Origin: Opitutaceae bacterium
GTDB lineage: Bacteria; Verrucomicrobiota; Verrucomicrobiia; Opitutales; Opitutaceae
Direction of reading: 5' to 3'
Length of the DNA stretch: 64,000 nucleotides
Assembly: GCA_014376585.1 (NCBI GenBank)
Contig: JACMRG010000312.1
Location: 1-64,000, forward strand
The notes under the pieces were generated by a model. It made no database searches. It saw only the letters and a list, made by a program, of their open reading frames with translations, and was not told the DNA's origin. The position numbers and the translations under genes are program-made. This document shows, piece after piece, positions 2,553 through 45,688 of this stretch (the first letter of the stretch is position 1; every line of letters begins with the position of its first letter).

Positions 2553-5500
2553 TCAATCGCCCGGAGTATCTAAATCTAAGAACTCGAAGCGTGCCTCACG
2601 GAGCAGGTGCTCGCGAGCCTGCTCTGCAAGCACTCTGGTTGAGTCATTAACACTGAAGAGACCGGCCCTGAGGATAGGTTTAACTTTATCAGTTTGAAGG
2701 TAGATGTAATCTTCTTTCTCGAGACCACGGATCAGTTTTGAGAAACACTCTACGACTAAATCGCGGTTTGCGGGTAGGGATTCGACTAAACTGTTTAATT
2801 TAATCCCTATGCCGACGTCACGTCCCGCACTTATATCTAGAATTTCGGAGAATGTCTTGAGGCGCCACGAGATATTTAAGCACTTTGCATCTAGCCAAAA
2901 AGTATAGGCTGATAATTCCTCTTTATTTCCCTCTGCGATTCGCCAGTTCGCAAATGAAGTAATTCGATTTTTAATTGATTCCTCTACTTCTTCTTGTGCG
3001 TTACGTAATAACCGACCGATATGATCAAACAACGCGGCCCACTTTTTAGGCTGCGATCGTGTTCGATTGTAAAACATTTCGAGCATACTGCCTTCGCCTT
3101 TTAGTGGATAGAGGCCCCAAAGATAAAACATGAACAGATGCTGTCCCAAGCTATCGACCCAATCCCGATTTCCGTCCTCATTCGATTGGGAGTCAAACTG
3201 ATCTAATGCGTATGCGTAATCCTCTCTAAGTAGCTCAAATGGACGTTTGTAGGGATTGTTGAAACGAATATAAGTCCTGAATGCATCAGTCCATGCCTGT
3301 TTGTTCGCGCGTGGGAAAAGTAGTGCCCGATGTTTTGAGGCCCACGCCGCGTCGAGGGTGATTAGATTGGGAAATTGGCGTCCGAAAAGAGCATATTCGG
3401 CAAATGTAATGGGCAGTCGATCTACGACCATGAGTCGTTGATCTAAAATATCTCCGACTTCAGAAACGGGATCATCTGGGATACTGCGGCGGATCCAAAA
3501 CCCTAAACCTATAACTGCCTCCAATGCGATACCTCTGGGGTTATTGATAGCGTCGCTGAGGGGATCCCGGCGATTTAGGATCGTGGTCACACCGTCGTCC
3601 AAACGGGAGTCCCTTTGAACGCAGATCAGCCTGAGAAGGTCCGCTATTTTTTTTCGATAACTGAGCGGTGTGTTCGCATCTTTAGACACGCATATCTCCA
3701 AAAAATCGATCACGCCACGCCGCACCGGATTCCACGCAGGCCTGTCACTGGATTCTTCATGAGGGCGATCAGTTCTGTCATCTTCGTCAATTTCTCCAGG
3801 TTTCGTGAGCACCCATTGGCATAAATCAAAGATCTCGCTGAGATATAGAAAATTGTTGTTTTTAGTCTCCTCACTCACGGCGCGTATTAGGAAACGGACA
3901 TAGATCGGACGTGCTATGCGTTCCCGATTTTTGAACCAAAATTCAGCTCGTGTAGATTCAAGAAGGACCTTGCTACGCAGGACGGTCTCGAAGGCGGATG
4001 CCAATGCAGAAATGTTGATTTCAATTAGCCAATTCTTCGGATCGCGTAGCGAATTTTCCCAATCGTTAATATATTCAAGAAGTTGTTCGTCGGATAAAAC
4101 GGCTAATTCTTCAATTGATTGCGGGCTGCGATATGAGACGAATCCGCTCTGTGCAATTCCTGTAGGTGAATAGTCTTCATCAGATATTGTTCCGTCGGCT
4201 TGTTCGCTTAACGCATCGAAACGCTCTCTATATTTTCCAAATAGAATTGGTGAAAATGGCTGCAGTTGCTTGCGATGAAAATAGTCTATGCGTTTTTGAA
4301 ATGTATCCTCGCTGAAATAGCTTCCCATCGCTTGACGCGATTCAGGCTCCGAGGGGCCACTTATAATGGCGTCAAATATTGTCGTTTTTTCTGCTTCCGA
4401 GAGCAGCGAATTTCCCCAGAGATCGCATGCTCTATGAATCATTTTTTGAAGTTCGTAGTGGTATTCCCATTTATGATAATATGGATAGGCGAGAATGAGT
4501 TCGCGAATCCAAGGATTAAGCTGCTCAGAAGTGAATTCGGAATAAAGGTGTTCGCGTAAGCGTTCAAAAATTGAAATACTGTGGGCCCTTAAGGCTGCAT
4601 CCAGAGGTTGTATATATTCTGGTTTATCTCGATATAATTTTTCGCAAGCGTCGGTGAGAACATGAACAAGGGCGGCGTCGGTAGTTTCATTTTCAACAGG
4701 CCCTGCTAATTTGCGGCACCACACTTCAGAGTAATCTTTCAGGAAGTCACTGCCATCTCCGTAGGCATGTCTAAGCCGAACCATGGACGCTACTGCATCG
4801 ATAAGCAGGCGTCCTGTTTCATAGGGTTTTTCTTGTGCTAAATGCCTCACGCCTTGATTCAGAACATCGCAATAACTCCATTGCTCGAAACGAGGGGCCG
4901 CAGCTTTTCCATCTATCCCAGATTTAAATTCTACAATATTGATAAATAACGCTATGGTTTGTGCTGAATTGATGCTCTCCGAGAACTGTGGCCACTTTAG
5001 TAATCTGATCACGATATCCGATCTCCAATGAGGTTCATTTAAAAAAGCTTTAATGGTTTCGTTGAAAATACTGATCGAGTTTGGGTGATCGAGTTTGATG
5101 ATGGTCGCTATCAGGGAGCTCAAAACCTGCGGATTCTGGGTAGGCGGTAGATTGCTAATTATTTTGAAGACCGCATCCCTATCTCGCTCGCATACATTCC
5201 ATAGATACTGTGCTGGCGGCCAAAGAGGAAACCTTCGCGCACCATCTGATTGAGTCTCAACATCTGAGATATTATCGAAAAGATCGGCTGAAATTAGGAA
5301 GGGAATCCAGAATGGATCTGTAACTGTATTGAAGAAATATTGGTAACTCTCGCCTCGTTGTCTTAATATTGCTGTAAGCCTGGATATTTCCAGTTCCGTG
5401 GCGCCGATACCTAGGGTGACTATGGCACGTATTTCGTCTAGATTTTCGGTTGCCGATAAGTTCAGTTTTTCTGACGCCTCGTCTTGCGTGCTGATGTTCG

Positions 5501-6095
5501 GCGCTAAGGCGGATTTTATTTTTGAGATGTAATCTTCGATTCTAGAAAAATGAACCAAATGCTTTCTGCTCGTGCATGCTTTAATGAAGTCTCCGTCGTG
5601 GCCTACGACGGCTATCCTCACTTTGTTTTTCTTTTGATAGTCGTCGATGGCGCTTAATATGAACGCATCTGGAAATTCACGTGGTTTCTTTTCAGAAAAG
5701 GGAGCGATCTCAGAAAAATACCAGTGGGAGATTGTCTCCATATCTCCCGCTAATGGCAGCGACTCGGCCTTGAAGTGAGACTTAAATTTCTCCCATTGCG
5801 AGTTAAGCTCTGCTTCACAATCTGCTTCAATCTGAGCAGGCGAAAGCGCGATTTTGGTGCTGAGTGTATCGAAAGGATGCTTGTTTAAAGCGTCTTTTAT
5901 ATGTTTTGCGCACTCTTTGGCGCGGCGCGAAAAATGACGCTTTAATTCACGCTCCATCATGAGCGGAACTAGGATTCGAAGCGCTTGTGGGCGAAATTCG
6001 GATATTAAAGCTTGGAATTCTTTAGTGCTGAAACGCAGATCGTTTCTTTTGAAGACTTCAGTGTCGATATAAAGCGTTAGAGGGGTGTAGCTCAT
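2553..6095 (-). CDS. Large PIN-domain protein (PIN_12/DUF4935-like) with long helical C-terminal region
   Basis: 1180 residues. The N-terminal ~190 residues look like a PIN-type RNase domain of the DUF4935 kind. Acidic residues sit at the expected places: D11 (LYIDTEVF), E48/E50 (PLMMERELKRH), D143 (FPDAFILSAI) and D167/D169 (VVGHDGDF). The remaining ~980 residues are mostly helical with no motif I can name. WPPAQYL near residue 290 and a C-terminal leucine-rich block remind me of the HEAT-like tails of large bacterial STAND/NTPase-type defence proteins, but I see no Walker motif here. The gene is markedly more AT-rich than its neighbours and uses many A/T-ending codons, consistent with horizontal transfer. 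It stands alone between a frame-broken reductase gene and a glycosidase remnant. A nuclease role is inferred; targets and partners are unknown. Confidence 0.75.
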   Translation of the reverse strand: MSYTPLTLYIDTEVFKRNDLRFSTKEFQALISEFRPQALRILVPLMMERELKRHFSRRAKECAKHIKDALNKHPFDTLSTKIALSPAQIEADCEAELNSQWEKFKSHFKAESLPLAGDMETISHWYFSEIAPFSEKKPREFPDAFILSAIDDYQKKNKVRIAVVGHDGDFIKACTSRKHLVHFSRIEDYISKIKSALAPNISTQDEASEKLNLSATENLDEIRAIVTLGIGATELEISRLTAILRQRGESYQYFFNTVTDPFWIPFLISADLFDNISDVETQSDGARRFPLWPPAQYLWNVCERDRDAVFKIISNLPPTQNPQVLSSLIATIIKLDHPNSISIFNETIKAFLNEPHWRSDIVIRLLKWPQFSESINSAQTIALFINIVEFKSGIDGKAAAPRFEQWSYCDVLNQGVRHLAQEKPYETGRLLIDAVASMVRLRHAYGDGSDFLKDYSEVWCRKLAGPVENETTDAALVHVLTDACEKLYRDKPEYIQPLDAALRAHSISIFERLREHLYSEFTSEQLNPWIRELILAYPYYHKWEYHYELQKMIHRACDLWGNSLLSEAEKTTIFDAIISGPSEPESRQAMGSYFSEDTFQKRIDYFHRKQLQPFSPILFGKYRERFDALSEQADGTISDEDYSPTGIAQSGFVSYRSPQSIEELAVLSDEQLLEYINDWENSLRDPKNWLIEINISALASAFETVLRSKVLLESTRAEFWFKNRERIARPIYVRFLIRAVSEETKNNNFLYLSEIFDLCQWVLTKPGEIDEDDRTDRPHEESSDRPAWNPVRRGVIDFLEICVSKDANTPLSYRKKIADLLRLICVQRDSRLDDGVTTILNRRDPLSDAINNPRGIALEAVIGLGFWIRRSIPDDPVSEVGDILDQRLMVVDRLPITFAEYALFGRQFPNLITLDAAWASKHRALLFPRANKQAWTDAFRTYIRFNNPYKRPFELLREDYAYALDQFDSQSNEDGNRDWVDSLGQHLFMFYLWGLYPLKGEGSMLEMFYNRTRSQPKKWAALFDHIGRLLRNAQEEVEESIKNRITSFANWRIAEGNKEELSAYTFWLDAKCLNISWRLKTFSEILDISAGRDVGIGIKLNSLVESLPANRDLVVECFSKLIRGLEKEDYIYLQTDKVKPILRAGLFSVNDSTRVLAEQAREHLLREARFEFLDLDTPGD

Positions 6096-6369
6096 TTGGG
6101 AAATGCGAAAGCAGGGTTAGATACTTCGGGTGGTTGCACGACACGGGTAGTATGTTACTTCCCAGTTGAATTTTGAGGGTGAGCTGGGATTCCAGAAGTG
6201 CAATGACTTATGAATCATTTCGTGGTCACTCGTGTCGCGCTCTCTAGTCGTTTGTTGCCTATTACGTCAATTTTGAGTGCTGCCGCTATATTGTCAGCGC
6301 TTGCGCCAAATATGAGCCCAATCTGGTCTGGCTTAAATTGAGCGTAAGAGTCTCCCCATGTTCACGGCG
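6096..6369. other. Upstream region of the PIN gene
   Basis: Moderately AT-rich sequence without a convincing ORF on either strand. It presumably contains the promoter of the minus-strand PIN gene. I see no partner antitoxin-sized gene. Confidence 0.4.
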
Positions 6370-6725
6370 TTGCTCGAGACACAATAGCTCAAAAGTCGGA
6401 TGTTTAAAGCGCGCCACGGCAGCCCGCTCTCATTGACGATTTCGATTTTCCAGCCGGCGGGCGTGTGGAGGCGGTAGTCGAGGCGGCCGTCTTTTCTCGT
6501 CCATTCGAGTTCGATGAAGCCGTCGGGCGTGAGGACGCGGCCGCGGCAGGAATCGAGTTTAACGCGGCGAAACCGACGGTGAGGCGTTTGGCGGGGAGAT
6601 CGACGGTGCGGAGGCCGAGCCCGTCTTGGAGGAGCACGTGCGCGGCGTGCGAGGCGAAGCGTGGTTGCCGCTCGCGGAGGGGCGGTCGTTTTCACAAAGG
6701 CGTGCCGCGGGTATCCGAGCTTTGA
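6370..6725 (-). pseudogene. Remnant of a glycoside hydrolase C-terminal domain (alpha-L-rhamnosidase-like)
   Basis: On the minus strand, pieces in different frames resemble the end of a GH78-type enzyme. They are a segment ENDRPSASGNH, then HVLLQDGLGLRTVDLPAKRL, then CRGRVLTPDGFIELEW and YRLHTPAGWKIEIVNESG. The last two look like the C-terminal beta-sandwich that follows the catalytic barrel. At least two frame changes separate the pieces, and no upstream catalytic part is present. The family assignment comes from memory of the motif order and is tentative. Confidence 0.4.
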
Positions 6726-6813
6726 CAGCGGGCGCGGCGATTTTAACCCTACTGGAACATCGCTGGAGCCGGCATGACCGTAGGCCGTTATGCGTCGCAT
6801 ACCCTTAACCAAA

Positions 6814-8733
6814 ATGAACCTAAGCTTTGAAATCACCTCTCGTGAGTGGCTGCGCGTGCTGTGCCTGGCTTTGATGCTCGCAACAGGGCCGTCCCACGCC
6901 GCCGATACGCCTGCGCTCCCCGCCGCCGCGAACGGCGCTGCGCCCGGCGACAAGGATGCGATCGTCTCGCCCACGCCGATGAAAATCGAAACGGTTGATG
7001 GCGCGGGCGCAGCCGGGCAATTAGTCGTCGCCCCCCAAGTGATCAGCTCCGATTCGCGCTCCGATCTTATCTACACGATCACCGAACAGCCATTGCATGG
7101 CCGGGTGGGGTTGTCGGGCGGCGTCGACGCGGACTTCTTCAAAAATCAAATCGCGCGCCTCGGTTATTTTGCGTATCGATCCACGGAAGGTTATGCGGGC
7201 GAGGATTCGTTTGCCTACACGGTGCGCAGTGAAACGTCCGGCCTCGTGTTCAAGAACACGGTGGTGGTGACGGTGGCGCCGCCGCCCGCGGTGGTCATGG
7301 GAAAGTTCGAGGTCGGCGCCAGTCGTGAGAACGTTACCAATAATGTCCGCGCCGTCGTGCTCACGACGCGTCCGAATTCCCCGGTCACGCAAAAGGTGCC
7401 GAACCACGAGGAGTTCATGACCCCGACCGACCGCGCCGTCATCGTCGCACCGAGGATTGCCTACGTGCTCGACGACAAAGCGAAACCGCAGAACGGAGCC
7501 GCCCGACTTGATCGCGCCACGGGTGAACTCACGTATGCGCCCAACCCAGGCTTCATCGGCGAAGACCGGTTCAAATATTACACGGTGGACGAAAACAATC
7601 CGGCCCTCGGGTTGGAGAATTCCGTCACGGTCAGCGTCGAGCCGCTCCGCAGCGCGAAACACGTGACGGTTGATCGTTCGCGTAGCCGGGAGGTTGACCT
7701 CGTGTTCGTCATCAATAATTCGCCCTCGATGGCGGCGCACCAGAGCCGGATCGCGGCGAACCTGAAACGCTTTCGCGAACTCTTCGACGCGCGCGCCCTC
7801 GACTACCGGATCGGCGTGCTCACGACCGATTTCGTGAATGCGGTCGCGACCCGCCGGCCCGACGATCAGCCCTACTTTAAAGAGGTCCGCTCCGCAGCAG
7901 TCGATCCGGCCGGCAAGCCGGTGGTCGATGGCCGCGGCCGCCCCAAGCAGGTGACCAAGCGCGTTGCGAGCAACGGCACGCTCGTGACGCTCCCCGCGTT
8001 GGCCCAGCCGTGGGTCACGCCGACGACACCCGACGGCGTCTTCGCCGAGTTGGTGCAGGTCGGCACCAACGGCGACAGCAACCGCACGGCGTTTACCTCC
8101 GTGTATAATTTCGTCGCGGGTTATTATAACAAGCAGCACACGTTCCTGCGACCCGACGCTACCACGATCGTGGTCTTTTTCATGGACGAGGAGGAGACGC
8201 GCATGGCTACGTGGAAGGAACAAACAAACGGTCCCCGCCAAGCCGAATGGATCGAAGACGGAAAACTCCCCGATCTGCTGAACCAGTATAACGCGCGCAC
8301 TCCGAAACAACGCCAGACGCTCGATGGCTACATCAACACCTGGGTTTTGCGGCCCTTCATCATCGCCAAGGGCAACAAGCGCGGAAAAATCGAGATGCAC
8401 GCGGTAGTTTCACCGGGCAACCTTTCGCACCGGCGGGCGGCTGAACTCACCGGCGGCACGGTGCTGAACATCGAGTCTGATTTCTCCGGTCCGCTGGCCG
8501 CGCTGGGCGACCGCATCGCCGACACGGTGGCCGTGGCGCTCGAGCCTGTCGGCCCGGCCGCGACGTTCTACCAAAAGAGCCTGCGCGTGCTGGTGAACGG
8601 CCAGGAGGTGCGCCCCGACCCGCAGAACGGTTGGATTTACGACGCGCTCACGCACAGCATCCGCTTCCAAGGCGCCGCGAAGAAGCAGGCGTTTCTAGCC
8701 AAGATCGACATCACTTACGAAGAGCACATGTGA
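6814..8733 (+). CDS. Exported protein with cadherin/Ig-like repeats and a degenerate vWA domain
   Basis: About 639 residues from ATG 6814; an ATG at 6790 is in frame but would lengthen the signal peptide oddly. The N-terminal signal peptide (WLRVLCLALMLATG...SHAA) is followed by two repeats of the kind FAYRSTEGYAGEDSFAYTV and LTYAPNPGFIGEDRFKYYTV, as in bacterial cadherin-like/Big-type tandem domains. From about residue 295 a von Willebrand A-like fold begins (VDLVFVINNSPSMAAHQ). Its MIDAS DxSxS has Asn in place of the first Asp, so metal binding is probably weakened. A later VVFFMDEEET strand fits the same fold. It probably acts in the periplasm or at the cell surface; the ligand is unknown. 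Confidence 0.75.
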   Translation: MNLSFEITSREWLRVLCLALMLATGPSHAADTPALPAAANGAAPGDKDAIVSPTPMKIETVDGAGAAGQLVVAPQVISSDSRSDLIYTITEQPLHGRVGLSGGVDADFFKNQIARLGYFAYRSTEGYAGEDSFAYTVRSETSGLVFKNTVVVTVAPPPAVVMGKFEVGASRENVTNNVRAVVLTTRPNSPVTQKVPNHEEFMTPTDRAVIVAPRIAYVLDDKAKPQNGAARLDRATGELTYAPNPGFIGEDRFKYYTVDENNPALGLENSVTVSVEPLRSAKHVTVDRSRSREVDLVFVINNSPSMAAHQSRIAANLKRFRELFDARALDYRIGVLTTDFVNAVATRRPDDQPYFKEVRSAAVDPAGKPVVDGRGRPKQVTKRVASNGTLVTLPALAQPWVTPTTPDGVFAELVQVGTNGDSNRTAFTSVYNFVAGYYNKQHTFLRPDATTIVVFFMDEEETRMATWKEQTNGPRQAEWIEDGKLPDLLNQYNARTPKQRQTLDGYINTWVLRPFIIAKGNKRGKIEMHAVVSPGNLSHRRAAELTGGTVLNIESDFSGPLAALGDRIADTVAVALEPVGPAATFYQKSLRVLVNGQEVRPDPQNGWIYDALTHSIRFQGAAKKQAFLAKIDITYEEHM

Positions 8734-45600: not shown

Positions 45601-45688
45601 TGGCGGAGAGGGAGGGATTCGAACCCCCGGGACCTTTCGGCCCAATGGTTTTCAAGACCATCGCGATAGACCACTCTGCCACCTCTCC
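45601..45688 (-). tRNA. tRNA-Ser (anticodon TGA)
   Basis: On the minus strand GGAGAGG...CCTCTCC forms the acceptor stem with G73 and an encoded CCA at 45603-45601. The anticodon stem is ATGGT/ACCAT with loop CTTGAAA, anticodon TGA, for UCA codons. A long variable arm (GGGCCGAAAGGTCCC) and a T-loop GTTCGAATC are present, as expected for serine tRNA. Confidence 0.97.

Follow-up and report, generated by a model that had tools for sequence, protein, structure and literature searches.

What does a protein of 1180 residues do for a cell whose genome carries its gene as a solitary block of AT-rich DNA? This question is raised by the window (the whole stretch of 64,000 nucleotides that was analysed), in which the gene stands alone, with 1180 open codons and zero internal stops. 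Its G+C content is 45.0%, against 60.5% (sd 2.0%) in stretches of the same length from the rest of the window, a distance of approximately 7.7 sd. A sequence-only reading had described it as an isolated AT-rich gene for a PIN-nuclease protein, and this description holds. The features discussed below are the following:

2553..6095, minus strand: the whole gene, PIN_12 domain plus DSR1-type sensor; ATG start, 1180 aa, based on the open reading frame call and full-length homologues
5516..6095, minus strand: residues 1-193, the PIN_12 nuclease domain through to its end; Pfam covers 8-170 (E 4.3e-21)
5436..5515, minus strand: low-confidence linker from effector to sensor, residues ~194-219 (pLDDT <50 at 198-212)
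2556..5435, minus strand: DSR1-type sensor tail, a helical HEAT-like solenoid, residues 220-1180, based on the Dsr1 match, hhalign, AlphaFold2 and fold search
1771-2436: flanking RibD_C-like open reading frame, part of which is out of frame when compared with intact copies of ~237 residues in relatives
6336-6974, minus strand: flanking stub with a weak match to the C-terminal part of alpha-L-rhamnosidase (E 6e-4, under the Pfam cut-off)

The N-terminal part had been read as a DUF4935/PIN_12-like nuclease with a complete acidic set, and the profile search bears this out. The whole PIN_12 profile (PF16289, positions 1-172) is matched with 76.5 bits, well over the cut-off of 32, and the acidic residues that a PIN domain should have are all there (D11, E48/E50, D143 and D167/D169), which places the protein in PIN_12 both by the Pfam gathering score and by its acidic residues. 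When 11 PIN_12 sequences are aligned (ten proteins with a PIN domain joined to the tail and one separate PIN_12 protein), D11, E50 and D143 never vary and D167/D169 hardly do, and a metal-dependent nuclease activity is predicted for the domain.

RNase toxins of the VapC type usually have the PIN fold, and small PIN_12 proteins occur on plasmids and, at one locus, alone (L007, 364 aa), which makes it conceivable that the protein is a toxin of a toxin-antitoxin system or an RNase active in general stress, restrained by a partner and devoid of phage sensing. We consider this account improbable: no small partner gene lies beside the window copy or most of its homologues, and the small PIN_12 proteins have the catalytic domain in common with the window protein but lack the DSR1-type tail. 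This tail, of about 1000 residues, is related to a known defence family, and effectors have been exchanged on it.

The nature of the tail is thus central to the argument. The sequence-only reading had announced nearly 1000 helical residues with no NTPase motif, and the tail does consist of approximately 960 residues that are helical in the AlphaFold2 model (past residue 210 the pLDDT lies mostly at 80-94), while no Walker A motif and no NTPase family were detected in the protein by motif scan, Pfam or NCBIfam. The tail falls in no Pfam or NCBIfam family, and single-sequence and profile searches of the PDB gave nothing significant. The profile search nevertheless leaves it no orphan, as model PDLC04166 of PADLOC (Dsr1) matches residues 650-1046 with E 1.6e-15, and homologous tails match the Dsr1 profile from position ~302, directly after its SIR2 part, to beyond 1000. 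For a profile-profile comparison (hhalign), six SIR2-fused DSR1 proteins of 1224-1286 aa from Pseudomonadota genomes were used, those scanned scoring >2200 bits over the full length of the main Dsr1 model (PDLC02183). The tail family aligns with them over 428 columns with E 1.9e-7, and on this basis the tail is a distant but real relative of the C-terminal region of DSR1, with an identity to the PDLC02183 type of 17% in the profile alignment. As for the fold, structure prediction gives a helical solenoid whose nearest PDB neighbours are importin-type HEAT solenoids, generic in character and with low TM-scores. The earlier suggestion that the tail recalls the HEAT-like sensors of STAND proteins therefore stands with respect to HEAT; the likeness to STAND proteins is only indirect, and by sequence the tail is related to DSR1. 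No relatives of the tail were found in viral contigs or phage records.

The window protein can accordingly be placed among known systems. It resembles DSR1 (PADLOC PDLC04166, PDLC02183 and PDLC04167) in size, in having an N-terminal effector followed by a helical C-terminal region of ~900 residues, and in the homology of that region. It differs in that Pfam finds only PIN_12 at its N-terminus, and the SIR2 domain, the catalytic part with which DSR1 depletes NAD+, is absent; its tail is also distant from the PDLC02183 type. As the SIR2 domain was tested for and is absent, the protein is not DSR1 as defined, and is instead built like DSR1 and related to it through the sensor. DSR2 of Bacillus subtilis 29R, which senses the tail tube protein, likewise combines an N-terminal effector with a helical HEAT-type sensor, but its effector is a NADase, and no DSR2 chain was recovered for the window tail by PDB profile search or among the 50 best fold matches. 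The anticodon nucleases PrrC and RloC also have a nuclease effector, and some PIN-tail genes, like prrC, belong to type I restriction operons; these nucleases, however, carry an ABC ATPase, whereas the window protein has the PIN catalytic set, no ATPase and no hsd genes beside it. Nor does it contain the central NTPase with Walker motifs that characterizes STAND/Avs proteins. The sequence-only reading had regarded a single-protein sensor-nuclease as a new arrangement, which is too broad, given that DSR1 and DSR2 already unite sensor and effector in one protein. What looks new is the replacement of the SIR2 NADase by a nuclease, together with the exchange of effectors on this sensor; in the literature searched (a scope without preprints and most subscription papers), no paper joining PIN_12/DUF4935 to a DSR tail and no DSR protein with a non-NADase effector were found.

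Taken together, these observations point to a one-protein anti-phage system with the layout of DSR1, in which a PIN_12 nuclease takes the place of the SIR2 NADase and which most likely acts by abortive infection. We give this reading a probability of roughly two in three; the sensing of phage, the trigger, the substrate and the protection are inferred from sequence and analogy. The parts that sequence comparison establishes are the two domains, their conserved fusion, the homology between the tail and DSR1, the existence of close tails with other effectors and the linkage of some copies to restriction operons. In DSR2 the SIR2 domains form the core, and the NADase is released when the helical arms capture the tail tube protein of the phage (PMC11263360, PMC10981675, PMC10973363). 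By analogy, the solenoid tail would hold back the PIN domain as long as the cell is uninfected and would bind a product made by the phage; this binding would free or dimerise the PIN domain, which might then cleave nucleic acid of the host, the phage or both, with RNA as the likeliest target, so that phage multiplication would stop at the cost of cell growth. The foreign base composition of the gene counts in favour of this model. Against it counts the resemblance of the tail to DSR1 and not to DSR2, the source of the tail-tube precedent (the literature searched yielded no trigger for DSR1), as do the weak AlphaFold2 model of the PIN part (pLDDT 30-80), the fold search that returned generic HEAT solenoids and not DSR2, and the position of the window copy, without defence neighbours and between damaged genes.

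This last point deserves attention. The earlier description of both flanks as decayed is fair for the RibD_C-like reading frame, which shows frame damage, and for the rhamnosidase stub, although sequencing error may be the cause of the damage, in an assembly of 435 contigs. No defence genes were recognised among the window neighbours inspected. The possibility that the copy is a relic, transferred in and deprived of its function, draws on precisely these circumstances (damaged flanks, a gene alone, no defence-type neighbours), and we hold it to be very improbable, considering that 1180 codons have stayed open and that all acidic residues and conserved columns have been kept. The way in which the gene may have arrived has also been considered. 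A clean empty site was not found among relatives, in which both flanking genes are present and never adjacent to each other. Insertion linked to a tRNA was rejected, the nearest tRNA lying at 45601. An inverted repeat of 20 nt (17/20 matching) connects window positions 2554-2573 and 6117-6136 within the AT-rich block, its left arm coinciding with the 3' end of the gene and its right arm lying 21 nt before the gene start; as the ends of an element it was set aside, being near chance (approximately 0.5 such pairs are expected by a hand estimate).

The distribution of the protein has been explored at two scales. Among 388 genomes of the phylum, seven contain a match, and two of these matches, in genomes other than that of the window, are PIN-tail orthologues of full length. 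A single scan across approximately 85,000 species genomes yielded 38 tail loci in over ten phyla, and PIN_12-tail fusions amount to ten proteins from five phyla. Full-length homologues are 43-44% (L002/L020) or 38-39% (L004/L026) identical to the window protein, and orthologues that repeat this architecture in 1190-1200 aa occur in five phyla, which means that the architecture in the window is not a product of chance. The tails are accompanied by the following effectors:

PIN_12 fused to the tail: L017, L019, L020, L024, L026, L027, L030, L048, L049 (broken frame) and the window protein
pP_pnuc_1-like domain fused to the tail: L018, L022, L028, L031, L032, L036, L042, L046, L047 and the more distant L053
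two-gene form, in which the gene of a ~212-aa protein (R and H invariant) overlaps the tail gene: L023, L025, L029, L033-L035, L037-L041, L044, in many phyla
SIR2_2 gene directly upstream of the tail gene: L003, L005, L045, L054, in Verrucomicrobiota

The second of these domains has a short match to pP_pnuc_1, the 'predicted pPIWI-associating nuclease', and a domain of this kind accompanies the tail, fused or separate, at 20+ loci. The gene of ~212 residues overlaps the tail gene at 13 loci and is fused to it in L043; two of its proteins were tested and no Pfam family exceeded the cut-off. The fused and separate forms have G43, A44, R65 and H176 invariant and are only ~18% identical, which makes a common origin likely as judged from sequence. 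The domain is helical, resembles pP_pnuc_1 only distantly and has R65 and H176 as invariant residues; a fold search gave it no significant match. The four loci with an upstream SIR2_2 gene represent a DSR1-like system laid out as two genes, SIR2 and tail. In Nitrosomonas sp. Nm132 (G392; L030, L105), a PIN-tail protein is encoded in one genome together with a complete DSR1 of the SIR2 type.

Effectors have evidently changed places on closely related tails. The tail nearest to that of the window (L003, same bacterial family) is 46% identical over 976 columns, and 5 nt separate its gene from a preceding SIR2_2 gene, whose product has the motifs GAGxT, TTNFD and HG. The tail gene begins at the equivalent of window residue 213, within the low-confidence linker; blastp finds no match between the window protein and this SIR2 protein. 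In a phylogeny of 34 tails, built under the simple LG+G4 model and with a bootstrap that had not fully converged, the window groups with L003 with support of 100/100, and both group with the SIR2-paired L045 with 96/95. Forcing all PIN tails into one group gives a worse tree (AU p 0.018, from a quick tree under a mixture model), and the four effector labels require at least 8 changes on the 34-tail tree. The window PIN domain is 39-49% identical to other PIN domains and its tail 37-43% identical to their tails, so the domain is about as diverged as the tail and no direction can be assigned to the swap between the window and L003. A second case is provided by L020 and L018, which share an hsdR-hsdM-hsdS-AAA_15 cassette (hsdM 92% and AAA_15 71% identical). 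The PIN-tail protein of the former and the pP_pnuc-tail protein of the latter have tails that are 67% identical, counted from residue 191 up to the C-terminus, and unrelated effector domains; a single slot of the cassette holds a PIN-tail gene in one genome and a pP_pnuc-tail gene in others.

The surroundings of the homologues offer no conserved housekeeping context, and the earlier inference of a mobile defence gene gains from the match of the tail to a defence family, Dsr1, and from several homologues in type I restriction operons or near defence genes (an AbiGi-like gene near L017, a TIR gene near L030). Three PIN-tail genes lie inside type I operons, in this order:

L013: hsdR, AAA ATPase, hsdM, hsdS, PIN-tail (4-nt overlap), HNH nuclease (4-nt overlap)
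L011: hsdR, hsdM, hsdS, PtuA-like AAA_15, PIN-tail
L027: hsdM, hsdS, PIN-tail 12 nt on, HNH gene

In L018, L028 and L051 the same place is held by pP_pnuc-tail genes, and L023 has hsdS just upstream. In MAGs of several phyla (L018, L028, L051, L011), conserved type I genes are followed by a PtuA-like AAA_15 gene and then by the effector-tail gene, which AAA_15 overlaps in L018.

With genes placed as closely as a 4-nt overlap with hsdS or a 12-nt gap behind it, the tail could be watching the cell's own type I enzyme, and the PIN domain could serve as a fallback, set free once that enzyme is knocked out by an inhibitor from the phage, as happens with PrrC and EcoprrI (PMC2610378). This reading fits some loci and not the majority, as most tail loci, including that of the window, have no adjacent type I genes and the SIR2-paired tails lie outside such operons; as a general explanation we find it unlikely. 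Passenger genes are, moreover, common in restriction-modification loci without functional coupling.

The tails joined to PIN, SIR2 and pP_pnuc-like domains are related to one another, with 46-70% identity. At least three different killing parts are thus exchanged among relatives on one sensor, which points to a general-purpose infection detector. The existence of a version with a nuclease suggests that this sensor can drive more than one killing chemistry, and hence that the system is defined by the tail and not by SIR2; models for defence finding that demand a SIR2 domain overlook the PIN-tail version. The pairings with PIN, SIR2 and pP_pnuc-like domains are natural domain swaps that make the sensing by the tail and the release of the effector testable. 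A wider proposal, whose chances we see as evenly balanced, is that the DSR1-type tail is a general infection sensor on which unrelated effectors (SIR2 NADase, PIN nuclease, the helical R/H domain related to pP_pnuc_1 and perhaps haloarchaeal STAND ATPases) are exchanged, fused or split, some copies guarding a type I restriction operon. If true, DSR would be the bacterial, NTPase-free counterpart of those receptor families whose death domains can be swapped.

In archaea, STAND ATPases may carry a DSR1-type sensor as well. Haloarchaeal plasmid proteins of ~1500 aa (L009:4240-8772 and L010:2563-7014) contain tail-like sequence with 21-30% identity to the window protein, and that of L010 has a weak nSTAND_NTPase5 match (E 9e-4, under the cut-off).
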